A stretch of 64,000 bases of DNA, taken from positions 40,851 through 104,850 of the IMG/VR virus record IMGVR_UViG_3300033141_004289; one strand, written 5' to 3'. This DNA is from a virus. Shown here piece after piece: positions 23,290-61,892 of this stretch. Under the pieces are notes generated by a model. It saw only the letters and a program-made list of their open reading frames with translations. It did not search any database and had not been told where the DNA came from. Positions within the stretch are counted from its first letter, which is position 1. Every line of letters begins with the position of its first letter. The position numbers and the translations under genes were made by a program.

Positions 23290-26200
23290 ATGGCAATTTT
23301 AGGTGTATTTACTGATTTAGGAATGATAACTGCTCAGGATGCAGCCAATAACGAAGGTTTTCATTTAGTACCAGTTAGTTTTGGTGTATCCGATCAAGCT
23401 GGTGCTTTAGATTCTAGTAGAACAACTCCAAATGCTGGACTATTTTTTGAAGCAGCAATTTCTAGTCGTGTAATTATAGATCAAAATAAAATTAAGTTTG
23501 TACTAACTATTCCACCTAATCAAATTCCAGCTGGAACTTTTAAGATAATTCGAGAAATTTATTTAAATATTAATGATGCATTAGGTAATCCGTTTCTATT
23601 TGCTATTGGTCAACCAACTGATGAAATTAGATATAATGCTGATGACCAAGTTACTTTAGACCTCGAAATGTCTATCACTAATTTGGATTTAACCGAACAA
23701 TTCGTATTTGAGTTCACACAAGCAACGGAAATCTCTGAACACAATCTCGATCCAAATGCACACACTGATTTAGTCGCTGAACTAAAGAAGCATGGAATTT
23801 TTATTCCTGCAGGTGCATATCCATTTGAATATCGTGGCCAACATGTTTCTAAAAATACTGAATTTGATGGGGTAAAAGCATCTGTACTTTATAATGGAGT
23901 AACTTTTTCATCAACTTATAATGGAACAGAAAATAATGGAAAAACATTAACATTTGATGGGATATTAACTGCTGATGAAGTTAGAGCTGTTTTTAATGCA
24001 GCAAATTATCCAAATACAGTTGAACATGATGGAATAGGAACAGAGGTTCTTCCAATTGGGACACCAGCTTTAATTGGTGGTTCATATATTGTTGAAGATA
24101 ATGATGTTGTTTATAAAGATATTGATGGAGTTTATAAACAAGCATTAGCTGACGGAACTAATAAATCCAGAGTTGCTGGAATAGCTTATAGAGATGATAA
24201 GTGTGTTGTTTCCCAAGGTTTAATTGGAATAGATACTGGATTTGCAATTGGACAAGCAGTTTATTTAAGTGGAACTACTCCCGGAAAATTAGTTGATTTT
24301 GATACTAATATTAATATGGGATTAGTATTAGGTGACTATATTTATTTCATTGGATTTTCAGGTGATATATCTGCCAATGTAACCCAAGATTTTGATGCTA
24401 TCGTTACAAATGCCGCTGGTGTTGGGCAATTTTTAACCACCCAAGCAGCAATTGATTATGTGCCTAGTGATGGTAGAATTTTAATTAATAAATTAGAAGA
24501 TTTAAAAAATATTATTGATACAGGTGGAAAGAATCTTTCAATAACATTTAACGGCCCTGAAATGGGTTGGAAAAAATTTGATGGTTTATCAAGTCAATTT
24601 AGAATTGATTTTGACCAAGTACCTACGCAAGGAACATTCAGGATAGAGTGGAACTTTCAAGAAACTAATGATTTACCATTTAACGCTACAGCATTGGATG
24701 TGCAGGGTGAATTTAATTTACTCAATGGACATAACGGATTTACCGTCACGGGTGATTTCGTCTCTGGATTCACCTTTACTTCTAATGACCTTGATAATTA
24801 TGCTTTGCCTACTTTTATTTTTGCCGGATTAAATGAGATTCAAAGATTTGATTTTAGTAATATTCCAAATGATGGAACAATTACTTTTAATCATAAAGGT
24901 CAGGATACACTTAACTTTCCATGGGATGATTTAGCATCTGATTTAAAGATTGCTTTAGAAGCATTATCTACAATTACAACTGTAAATATTACAGGTGAGT
25001 TTGCTACTCAATTTTTTCAAATTGAATTTGCTGGTGGCTTTTTAGAAGATGGTGTTCAAGAACAAGATATAATGACGGTTATTCAAACTGACCTTGACTT
25101 GTTAGGTGCTTCAACCGATATAAACGGAACTACAATTGTTCCAATTGATTCATCAATTGTTCAAAAAGGAATTAAGCCTGCTTCTAATTTATTTAACGGT
25201 ACATTACCAATTACCATTACTACTTCCTTGCTGCAAACTGGTGAACAACCAGGGCCTAACAGAGCGATGGAAATTGACTCAACTAATATTGCATTCTTTG
25301 GGATGGGTAAGGTTGAAAATTTTGAAGAAGGATTAGTATTATTAGAGGCCTCAACTAAAGTAACTATTGAAGCCTATTTTCCAAATACAACAAATCCAAT
25401 TTTAACATTAGATAAAATTCCGGGAATTGATTATAGTTTTGATGATGTTCAAGGTTTTGCTAAAGATGTATTTAGCCAACTTAGAATTGTAGAGCATCCA
25501 ACTAATAAAAAGCGTGTAATAATTACAGGGTCAGACCAAATTTTTGCCTCAGGAATTACACTAACTCAAGAAATCAGCTCATTAATTTTAAAATTTGAAG
25601 GTGCGCAAATTGATTTTAGCACTGGTTCTATTTATGAATCAGATGGACTTACAGCACTTGGAACCGATTTTATACCTCCAACAATTGCACCCGATCTTTG
25701 GAGATGGTTTTCAGTAAATATTATTCCGAAAGCAGTTGAAACAGATTTATCCTTAAAAGGTCAAGTATTAGTATTGCCTGCTGGAACTGATGGGGTATCT
25801 AAAGTATTAGCTGAGAAGCCACCGTTTGGAGACAAGCCAATTGGTGCAATAGCTATTCAAGGTGCATTAGGCGATAAAGAGAAAACTCAAGTTACTACAA
25901 TTAAAGATACCTTTAATAATTTAAGAGGTAGAGCTTTTACTCTTTATCATCCTCTTGAGTCAGTAGCTTTTTGGGTAACTGACCCATCTTTGGACACTCC
26001 ATCTATTGAAGCAACTACAGGCGTTGTAGGTGTTGATTTAGACACTTTTAATAGTACGAATACTTCTGGTATGAGTGCTAAAATAGTTGTAGCTGCTCCA
26101 ATTACAATTGATAAAATTCATCTTTTCTTATCAAAAATTGGTAACCCAACTGGTTCTGTAGATATTAAAATTCTTGGCGAAAACCTTGGATTACCTGATG

Positions 26201-40323: not shown

Positions 40324-40859
40324 GCCAACCCTTTGACCCTATAACTTTAGACCTTGTATTATGGGATTATTCCCCTGATATGCATGTAAGGGCCATATTA
40401 GAAGCTGATGGGTTAACACAACCAATTTCACCAGTTGTTATCCCTCATAAATCAAGTGGTAGATATGTACTCTATGACCCACCAAATATTTATTTTCCAG
40501 ATAATGTAAGTCATTATGCAATAACTTATGAAGTATTTAAAGATTCAGGTTTTACTCAAAGAAGCTTAACTCATGCTCCATATATGGAACATTATACTAA
40601 AGATAATCCAATTCCGGGTGGTGACCCAGAAGTTATTGAGAAGCTAAATCAAGTAATAGATATAGTTACATCTCACGATGTGAATAGCCAGATTGTTGGT
40701 GTGTTACAAGAGGAATTTGAATTAGTTGGTGTTGTAATGCCTGAAGACGTAATTGGTGTTGCATTTGATGATATTACTCTAGTTGGTCTAGTATTAGATG
40801 AAGGTGACACTGGTGGTGATATTTTTGATAATGATGATTTAACAGGTACAATAAATTAA
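40320..40859 (+). CDS. Appendage-region protein with C-terminal short repeats
   Basis: 179 residues, ATG overlapping the previous TGA. An Ig-like beta domain (VRAILEADGLTQPISPVVIP, HYAITYEVFKDSGFTQRS) is followed by an acidic tail. The tail has three imperfect repeats of the form F-x-L-[V]-G-[V/L]-V-[M/L]-[P/D]-E-[D/G]: EFELVGVVMPEDVIGVAF, DDITLVGLVLDEGDTGG, then DDLTGTIN. Acidic repeated tails may bind another fibre component. Function unknown. Confidence 0.5.
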   Translation: MSQPFDPITLDLVLWDYSPDMHVRAILEADGLTQPISPVVIPHKSSGRYVLYDPPNIYFPDNVSHYAITYEVFKDSGFTQRSLTHAPYMEHYTKDNPIPGGDPEVIEKLNQVIDIVTSHDVNSQIVGVLQEEFELVGVVMPEDVIGVAFDDITLVGLVLDEGDTGGDIFDNDDLTGTIN

Positions 40860-59231: not shown

Positions 59232-61892
59232 TTATTTTAATTTTTTTCCGTACCATTCATACTCGTAAAAATCAGTATCTATCTTTAAGTTTAATTCATA
59301 TTTTGTACCACGATGAAAGGTATGTGGCATCTGTTTTAATAGTGCTTGATTAACTGCTTCTCTTTCATCTTTAGGACACTCCCCAACAATTCCATCATGA
59401 ATTGAGAGTAATATTCTACTCTTCATTTTATGTTTTCTAAAATGTTTATTTAATCTAATACAAGCAGATTCAAATACCTCATGCGCACCACCTTGAACTG
59501 GAAAATTCATTGCTTGCCTAGAAATCTCTTCTTTTAAATTATTTGCTTTCCACATATCTTCAGAATATTCATTATTTATCCAATTTGTTGCAGCATTAAA
59601 TCTTCTTTTTCTACCACTTAAAAGTGTTATAAATCCCTTACTAACTGCTTCATTAACTAACTTATTTCTCCAATCATACATCCCACTATAAATTTCAAAA
59701 TAAGCATCAACCATATCTTCTGCTTCATCCTCTGCAATTTTAAAATCTTTAGCAAAGGTCATAGGCGTTTTACCGTAGTTTAATCCAAAACCTATCCCCT
59801 TTGCTTGAGTTCTGATTTCATGGAAATCAATATCTTTTCCATGTTTTTCAATATCTTTCATTATTTCATTAATAGTATCTTGGTCTTTTACTAATTTTTC
59901 TTTTTCATTAGCTACTAACATATGTTCATAACTAACCCATTTAGGGATTACATTAAGAATTTTTCCAAGGTCTGTAGCATTAATACAATGTAAGTCCATT
60001 CCATCTTGGATTCTTTTTGTAAGAATCTTATCTTTAGACAGTGCTGCTACAATACATTGCTCTAATTGACTGTAATCTGCCTCAAATAGCATCCAATCCC
60101 TATTTGTTGGGATAACGAATGACCTTGTATTTGGAAGTCCTTTAATAGGCCTTGGAAAGACCTGCAGGGATGGTTTAGAACAGCTATAACTGCCAGTACG
60201 AGGTGTCCATAAATTGAAATTAGCATGAATTCTATTATTCTCATCTAAATACTGTAAAAAACCACCATTTCCATCTTTACCATCTATGTAAGTTCCACGA
60301 ATTTTAGTGAGCTTTTTAATATCTAATAATAGTTTTGGAAACTTATTCCATTTTTTATATTTCAAAAACTTATTTAATTCATCTTTTCCAGTAGAATAAC
60401 CTGTTTTGTTTTCTTTAATCTTTAATCTTTCAAATGGATAACCCTCTTCAGTCATGTATTCAATAACTTGTTTAGGACTATTTGGATTAAATTCAGGTAA
60501 ATTAGTTAAATCTTTTATACTAGTTAATAACTGATCTTGCTTTGCACTTACTATATTTGATGCTTTTAAAATCATTTTCTTATGATATTTAACACCTATA
60601 TATTCAGTCTTTAATATATCAAGAAGGGCCGGCATAGAGTTTTTAAAAAAGAACTCATATAAATCTTCTTTTTTTAATTCTTTCATTTGTTTTTTCCATA
60701 ACAAATGATCGGCATATACATCAATACCTAGATAATGTTCTAACATCTTTGGTGGAATAAACTGATAAGATTTTTGCTTATTAGAATCTTTATTAACATA
60801 GGGCCATAAAAGTGTATCATAAGGGCCGAAATTTATATTTCTTCTCTCACAGGCAATATTAAGTGCATGGCCAACATTTTCATCAATTAATGGGTCAGCT
60901 CTTAGAGTATCAAACCAAAAATTCTTATAAGGCATCTCATTAAATAAAGCGAATTTAGCATCGAATTTACCATTATGAAGTATGAACTTAATATTATCGA
61001 ATGAATTAACTAACTTCATAGAACTAACACATTTATCTCTATTGTATTTTAAGAAGATATTTATCTGTCTTGCTCTATCAATATTTTCTTTATCCCACTT
61101 TTTTAAATGTTCTTTTCTATAAGGTTCTAAATAGATAATATCTGCTACATCATGTGAAAAATAGCCAGCATTTATTATACGATCTTCCCAAAAATTAAAG
61201 CCCGTAGTTTCATAATCGGTAGTACAATATTTAACACTTCTCATTTTTTCAACAAAATCATTTAATCCAGATACTGTTAATATGACATTTGTATCAACTG
61301 GTTTAGTTATATCAATTGTATTAGTCCTTAAATATTTAACAACTTTAGTAAAATCCCTAACTATATCAATGTCATACTCCCATTTACTTAAAGATGCTAA
61401 TAAGGAGAATGTAGGCATTATTTTACATTTAAATGTTTTAATAACTATTTTATTTCTGATTTTTACTTCTCTATCTAATTCAAAATCATCAAAATGACCT
61501 CTAAATTCTCTAACTGAGGTATAGTTAGAAACACTGGTCCAACTCCATTTCCCCATTGCTATAATAACTAAGGGACTATGTTCTATAATTTCATTAAATA
61601 GATATTTTCTACACTCGACTAAATGTTTTTTCTTAATATCAGAAATAGCTTTTACAGAACATTTTACAGCGTAAGTTACATATACTTCATCTGGGTTAAA
61701 ACCTGTTTGTTCAAATAAATAACTTAATTTAGCTCTTGTATCACCTGATAAACATTGATTAAATCTATCATCTTGGTATGAAGGTGCATCCAATATTACC
61801 ATTACTTTAGTCTTTTTGGAATGAGAACCTCTACCCATTATTAGACTATTTCTACAACCTTTATGTAATGGACAATCTTCGCATCTACTCAT
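59232..61892 (-). CDS. Family A DNA polymerase with N-terminal iron-sulfur UDG-fold domain and 3'-5' exonuclease
   Basis: 886 residues. Residues 1-185 are like family 4 uracil-DNA glycosylases: Cys4-x2-Cys7 (MSRCEDCPLH), Cys78 (TYAVKCSV) and Cys94 (LVECRKYLF) give the spacing of the 4Fe-4S ligands, and SPLVIIAMGKW and KIMPTFSLLASL match later strands, but the G-E-x-P-G motif is degenerate (ILDAPSYQDD). Residues 200-400: DnaQ-type exonuclease with Asp226/Glu228 (TTDYETTGFN), ILHNGKFDAKF and YLGIDVYADH. C-terminal polymerase: motif A FEADYSQLEQ (Asp606), motif B RTQAKGIGFGLNYG, motif C LSIHDGIVGE (Asp833). The replicative polymerase of the phage. To my recollection SPO1-type phage polymerases also carry a UDG-like domain. 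Confidence 0.9.
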   Translation of the reverse strand: MSRCEDCPLHKGCRNSLIMGRGSHSKKTKVMVILDAPSYQDDRFNQCLSGDTRAKLSYLFEQTGFNPDEVYVTYAVKCSVKAISDIKKKHLVECRKYLFNEIIEHSPLVIIAMGKWSWTSVSNYTSVREFRGHFDDFELDREVKIRNKIVIKTFKCKIMPTFSLLASLSKWEYDIDIVRDFTKVVKYLRTNTIDITKPVDTNVILTVSGLNDFVEKMRSVKYCTTDYETTGFNFWEDRIINAGYFSHDVADIIYLEPYRKEHLKKWDKENIDRARQINIFLKYNRDKCVSSMKLVNSFDNIKFILHNGKFDAKFALFNEMPYKNFWFDTLRADPLIDENVGHALNIACERRNINFGPYDTLLWPYVNKDSNKQKSYQFIPPKMLEHYLGIDVYADHLLWKKQMKELKKEDLYEFFFKNSMPALLDILKTEYIGVKYHKKMILKASNIVSAKQDQLLTSIKDLTNLPEFNPNSPKQVIEYMTEEGYPFERLKIKENKTGYSTGKDELNKFLKYKKWNKFPKLLLDIKKLTKIRGTYIDGKDGNGGFLQYLDENNRIHANFNLWTPRTGSYSCSKPSLQVFPRPIKGLPNTRSFVIPTNRDWMLFEADYSQLEQCIVAALSKDKILTKRIQDGMDLHCINATDLGKILNVIPKWVSYEHMLVANEKEKLVKDQDTINEIMKDIEKHGKDIDFHEIRTQAKGIGFGLNYGKTPMTFAKDFKIAEDEAEDMVDAYFEIYSGMYDWRNKLVNEAVSKGFITLLSGRKRRFNAATNWINNEYSEDMWKANNLKEEISRQAMNFPVQGGAHEVFESACIRLNKHFRKHKMKSRILLSIHDGIVGECPKDEREAVNQALLKQMPHTFHRGTKYELNLKIDTDFYEYEWYGKKLK

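Follow-up and report, generated by a model that had tools for sequence, protein, structure and literature searches.

The window analyzed here, a stretch of 64,000 nucleotides, spans positions 40,851 to 104,850 of a viral record that is 104,850 bases long (IMG/VR record IMGVR_UViG_3300033141_004289). On its minus strand it encodes an 886-aa protein in which a domain with the fold of uracil-DNA glycosylases (UDG) precedes a 3'-5' exonuclease and a family A DNA polymerase (Table 1). An AAGGA lies upstream of the start codon, and the polymerase of the sole close relative that we found (L001) begins at the same place (MSKCVDC). The gene sits within a replication module encoding a primase/DnaB-type helicase, a RecA-like protein, a second DNA helicase, SbcC/SbcD-like proteins and a MazG-like protein. 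The segment singled out by a first-pass annotation of this DNA (61337-61892, minus strand) corresponds to residues 1-185 of the protein, and the predicted model of the full-length chain has a pLDDT of 91.1 and a pTM of 0.89.

Table 1. Features of the UDG-polymerase locus (window positions), of the 7-deazaguanine genes to the left of the window, and of the DnaE fusions used for comparison.
Feature	Position	Strand	Basis or remark
UDG-like domain, 3'-5' exonuclease and family A DNA polymerase, 886 aa	59232..61892	(-)	PF00476 5.7e-67, PF03167
UDG-fold N-terminal domain, residues 1-190	61323..61892	(-)	PF03167, family 4 models, alignment, AlphaFold2, Foldseek
C4-x2-C7, first two Fe-S ligand cysteines	61872..61883	(-)	alignment with family 4 UDGs and 69 viral domains
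Degenerate motif A (L34-D35-A36-P37-S38, replacing GEAPG)	61779..61793	(-)	alignment
Y74 in place of the uracil-binding Asn	61671..61673	(-)	alignment; PMC10359453 for the role of Asn
C78, third Fe-S ligand (VKC of the TNxVKC region)	61659..61661	(-)	same alignments as C4-x2-C7
C94, fourth Fe-S ligand (C-x15-C)	61611..61613	(-)	same alignments as C4-x2-C7
S163-L164 in place of motif B His-Pro	61401..61406	(-)	alignment
3'-5' exonuclease domain, D226-x-E228, D311, Y387-x3-D391	60720..61226	(-)	sequence; invariant in 72 relatives; secondary structure in model
Polymerase palm/fingers, motif A D606, motif C H832-D833	59232..60230	(-)	PF00476, sequence, relatives
PTPS/QueD type	G000:C1:12560-12997		1.4e-25; left of window
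Two adjacent DpdA-like transglycosylases	G000:C1:22509-23324, 23321-24157		phrog_887 about 1e-29; left of window
QueC	G000:C1:25759-26496		4.6e-57; left of window
Radical SAM, QueE type	G000:C1:29592-30320		8e-7; left of window
FolE	G000:C1:31323-31949		1.4e-55; left of window
DnaE with C-terminal UDG domain	L004:2145-5534, L017:2133-5513		Pseudomonas phages nickie and hairong

The polymerase part has the hallmarks of a proofreading family A enzyme, namely a PF00476 match with the motif A and motif C aspartates (D606 and D833, both invariant across 72 relatives) and an exonuclease of the DxE...D...YxxxD type, and should, as predicted from these residues, be active and proofreading. We also note that its motif A reads DYSQLEQC (residues 606-613; DYRAVEQY in L001), the Arg of DYSQxELR being gone, and that its motif C (residues 831-838) has HDG and not HDE, as does that of L001.

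The N-terminal domain matches Pfam PF03167 at 2.5e-10 (41 bits, cut-off 24.3) and the family 4 models TIGR00758 (UDG_fam4; 2.7e-16) and NF040953 (5e-18), in these two cases with scores below the curated cut-offs (59.7 against 125.3 bits, and 65.2 against 250), and phmmer connects it to TM0511 at 1e-7. An AlphaFold2 model built on a 69-sequence alignment reached a pLDDT of 94.6 and a pTM of 0.90, and when it was submitted to Foldseek the best PDB matches were family 4 UDG and UdgX (4zby, E 2e-13, TM 0.71/0.73). Because the model is confident and Foldseek ranks these proteins first, prediction lends the UDG fold good support, and at the level of the predicted structure we regard the alpha/beta/alpha fold of the UDG superfamily as confirmed. 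The first-pass annotation, which had proposed a UDG-like fold from the letters of the sequence, is upheld here by structure prediction, by the Foldseek matches and by a PF03167 score over the cut-off. It had also placed Cys4, Cys7, Cys78 and Cys94 in the CxxC ... C-x15-C layout of family 4 enzymes, and these residues do align with all four ligand positions, in family 4 enzymes and in phage relatives alike. They are conserved in homologs as well, C4, C7 and C78 being invariant and C94 at least 90% conserved across the 69 viral domains. A fifth cysteine, C13 (61854-61856), is common to the window, L001 and Lysinibacillus phage LysYB1.

The active site has fared very differently from the cysteines. 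Compared with the consensus of intact domains, to which its overall identity is 27%, the window domain keeps 4 of 4 cysteines and 1 of 8 active-site positions. Uracil is hydrogen-bonded by the Asn and by the His of motif B in UdgX and in other UDGs, where motif A carries an active-site residue (PMC10359453). In the window, motif A has become LDAPS, as the first-pass annotation had recognized, and the loss goes beyond what it claimed: L48 has taken the place of the stacking Phe, Y74 that of the Asn (TYAV for TNxV) and S163-L164 that of the His-Pro in motif B (FSLL for HP(S/A)). Since the glycosylase motifs are lost, uracil excision by this domain is unlikely, which agrees with the earlier proposal that it does not excise bases. 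The accompanying suggestion that it may sense template uracil fares poorly where the UDG pocket is concerned, as the uracil-binding residues and the stacking Phe have been replaced. Its other proposals, a clamp-like hold, a redox role or some further DNA contact, would all look alike in sequence.

L001, at 48% identity overall and 39% in the domain, displays the same pattern, with LDHPA at motif A and FGVN at motif B, and shares with the window ten consecutive identical residues, S126-D135. In this pair the rate of evolution is somewhat higher for the domain than for the polymerase, with dN/dS values of 0.48 and 0.27, respectively, that are not firm, because the two sequences are so diverged that synonymous sites are near saturation. 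A scan of genome_contigs with the pair returned no relative.

The attachment of a UDG domain to a phage polymerase, initially taken to be unusual, turned out to be widespread and already solved (PDB 9QHS). Scans of viral_contigs with polymerase-core profiles, seeded with domain-bearing polymerases and hence not an unbiased survey, yielded 143 loci, and the domain HMM matched 133 loci among these and the annotated phages, nearly all on family A polymerases, so that more than 100 viral polymerases were found to carry the domain. Foldseek searches against viral models add polymerases whose domain is not visible in sequence, in Enterococcus phages EFLK1 and Porthos, in Achromobacter phage Motura and in SP-15. 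The window shares the SPO1-type architecture, with the UDG domain N-terminal to the exonuclease and family A polymerase in a single reading frame. This architecture is already known, from the SPO1 polymerase, from 9QHS and from the very name of UdgX: UdgX structures are entitled 'Phage SPO1 DNA polymerase-related protein', so recognition of this kinship is of long standing. Aravind and Koonin are also said to have discussed the SPO1 polymerase domain in 2000. Among the papers searched we found none that deals with UDG-polymerase fusions or with 9QHS, and no description of the form with four cysteines, lost motifs and an Asp in motif A, which is a recurrent variant; this is weak evidence of its novelty. 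We further observed that in L007, L035, L041, L049, L075, L109 and about 50 other environmental phages a family A polymerase is joined to a family 4 UDG in which none of the known catalytic or Fe-S residues has been lost. Judging from these residues, such a protein could itself excise uracil, and would then be a polymerase able to remove uracil from its own template or product.

Active-site loss is not peculiar to the window. Among 112 domains spanning the relevant sites, the motif set is intact in 59, of which 56 have four Cys, and not intact in 53, of which 41 have four. A quick polymerase-domain tree (LG+G4, SH-aLRT support only, with some long branches and truncated contigs) requires at least 22 changes of active-site state, and its well-supported branches require at least 18 for the label of intact with four cysteines; full losses are fewer than these numbers, because mild alterations and a small number of truncated contigs are counted too. 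Under a strict definition there are 28 degenerate domains, 22 of which keep all four cysteines. When these were thinned at 50% identity, the 18 representatives, none of which has the motif A Glu by definition, retained 63 of 72 cysteines, against 148 of 216 other positions conserved in apparently active domains (Fisher p 0.0012). The Gly of motif A (G38) is absent from all 18 and the Asn (N74) is found in a single one, whereas P37 and Gly132 are present in every representative. The Glu at position 35 has become Asp in 15 of the 18, which is more than the 2/7 chance of a single-step change would give (binomial p about 2e-6). Because this Glu-to-Asp change recurs together with an invariant Pro, the data suggest that the former active site was remodeled for a non-excising contact and not left to decay. 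In two other lineages with catalytically degenerate domains, dN/dS is 0.03-0.09 (GDNPN lineage) and 0.026 (SPO1 lineage).

The genes listed to the left of the window in Table 1 make it probable that in the window phage a 7-deazaguanine takes the place of some of the guanine; L020 and L021 belong to the same observation. QueC was found in 4 of 40 records with degenerate domains, 6 of 40 with intact ones and none of 10 with UDG-less polymerases (10 of 80 UDG-polymerase records, window included), in a comparison with a small control and one scan seeded with a QueC-bearing phage, and the co-occurrence of 7-deazaguanine genes and UDG-polymerases in several phages is suggestive only. We also note that the UDG-polymerase gene often adjoins thymidylate synthase-type and deoxycytidylate deaminase genes (L005-L011, L016, L019, L029, L030), with a divergent ThyA family (E about 1e-8) among its neighbors, an arrangement reminiscent of 5-hydroxymethyluracil or hypermodified-thymine phages. 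The idea that motif loss tracks thymine hypermodification of the 5-hmdU type was not supported, PF00303 being present in 23 of 40 degenerate, 14 of 40 intact and 6 of 10 UDG-less records, and a hand count after thinning at 50% identity left a degenerate set mostly without PF00303. The genome record of the window itself has no match to PF00303 (ThyA) or to the dUTPase family PF00692, and no second UDG.

We suggest, with some confidence and on the strength of alignments and predicted models, that residues 1-190 are a non-excising UDG domain of family 4 type, kept as a structural module through which a proofreading family A replicase would contact DNA or dock a partner. The four cysteines would bind a [4Fe-4S] cluster that stabilizes the loops it joins, and the old DNA-binding face, lying where cellular Pol I has its 5'-nuclease domain, may contact single-stranded template, primer-template or a partner within the replisome. 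The UDG-like domain on DnaE, an unrelated replicase, also with its motif lost, counts in favor of this reading, as do the catalytic residues present in exonuclease and polymerase. The repeated loss of the cutting site suggests that the polymerase has some other use for the domain, and since domain and cysteines are kept, and similar losses recur under purifying selection elsewhere, this second function would be common to active and inactive forms. We assign a very slight chance to a pure relic, in which a glycosylase domain that came down from an active UDG-polymerase would now be drifting. Active-site-intact relatives are indeed common (56 of the 112 domains keep motif and four cysteines), and between window and L001 the conservation of the domain is somewhat below that of the polymerase (42% against 50%). 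Drift, however, is hard to reconcile with four cysteines all retained at so low an identity to the active consensus, with a fold predicted intact at high confidence, with dN/dS far below 1 in other degenerate lineages, or with the ten-residue run shared by window and L001.

Other readings give the remodeled site or the cluster a more specific task. The x-D-x-P-x pocket, with Tyr or a small residue at the Asn position, might recognize another base, such as a modified base of the phage genome, and either pause the polymerase or excise that base. The non-random Glu-to-Asp change favors such a base reader or glycosylase of changed specificity, as do the QueC, QueD-type PTPS, FolE, radical SAM and two DpdA-like proteins encoded in the window genome and the QueC of other UDG-polymerase phages. 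The same Asp-type change is nevertheless seen in phages without QueC, which are the majority, and with or without thymidylate synthase-type genes, and the window and L001 have lost the motif B His and the stacking Phe too. Moreover, 7-deazaguanine enters DNA after replication, by base exchange, and so needs no reader on the polymerase; we regard this reading as improbable. Archaeal family B polymerases stall at template uracil, and a dead UDG pocket that still bound uracil could stall a phage polymerase likewise, which would suit the descent of the domain, its proximity to the polymerase and a genome record devoid of other UDG, PF00692 dUTPase and ThyA. We think this very unlikely, given that motif A, Asn, Phe and motif B His have all been replaced in the window, that Asn and His are what binds uracil (PMC10359453), and that Asn persists in so few degenerate representatives. 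We give as little credence to a redox switch, in which the [4Fe-4S] cluster would tune the affinity of the polymerase for DNA or signal via DNA charge transport: the cysteines are kept more strictly than other conserved positions, but a cluster with a structural role would account for these data too, and the SPO1 group has lost the ligands and kept the domain.

Beyond the window, we would raise as a conjecture, and one that may well prove wrong, that in phage replicases an active family 4 UDG, once attached, has repeatedly become an x-D-x-P-x Fe-S domain whose new function, common to these domains, does not involve excision (a template grip, for instance, or a reader of non-standard bases), which would constitute an undescribed accessory module of family A polymerases. 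If so, a repair enzyme has many times been made a working part of viral replicases, its iron-sulfur cluster kept and its chemistry dropped. Intact and degenerate domains on related polymerases form a natural series with which the role of a UDG domain in a replicase is directly testable.

Among known systems, the free-standing family 4 UDGs (Thermus, Thermotoga TM0511, Sulfolobus 4zbx) share with the window domain the fold and the four Cys ligands; the latter differs in its fusion to a polymerase, in the replacement of motif A GE(A/G)PG, of the Phe, of the Asn of TNxV and of motif B HP(S/A), and in scores below the curated cut-offs. UdgX of Mycobacterium smegmatis is a close structural match with the same fold, but it has the motif A Glu (GEQPG), Asn91, motif B and the KRRIH loop, whereas the window has none of these, no such loop lying between C78 and C94, and scores 40 bits against 190 for TIGR03914. 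The DNA polymerase of Bacillus phage SPO1 (gp31) and its Okubovirus relatives show the same order of UDG, exonuclease and family A polymerase, have likewise lost motif A (QENPF in SPO1) and hold the domain under purifying selection. The two have parted ways elsewhere: the SPO1 group is without the Fe-S cysteines and keeps the motif B His-Pro, while the window keeps four cysteines and has lost His-Pro. The architecture can therefore do without the cluster, as lineages such as the SPO1 group that have also lost the cysteines show. PDB 9QHS, a 'Putative DNA-directed DNA polymerase I', is, like the window protein, a family A polymerase whose N-terminal region is UDG-like (A10 profile 1.3e-19, residues 9-156), here in a solved structure; it is longer (1142 aa) and its UDG-like stretch keeps motifs of the PFIG, TN and HPS type. 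Finally, in the Pseudomonas phages nickie and hairong, DnaE (Pol III alpha) also bears a UDG-like domain (PF03167 at 3.6e-12 in nickie) with motif A lost (LDGPS/CDGPS), as in the window. This domain is C-terminal, lacks the third Cys and belongs to a different polymerase family, and it is a second, independent joining of a UDG domain to a replicase.
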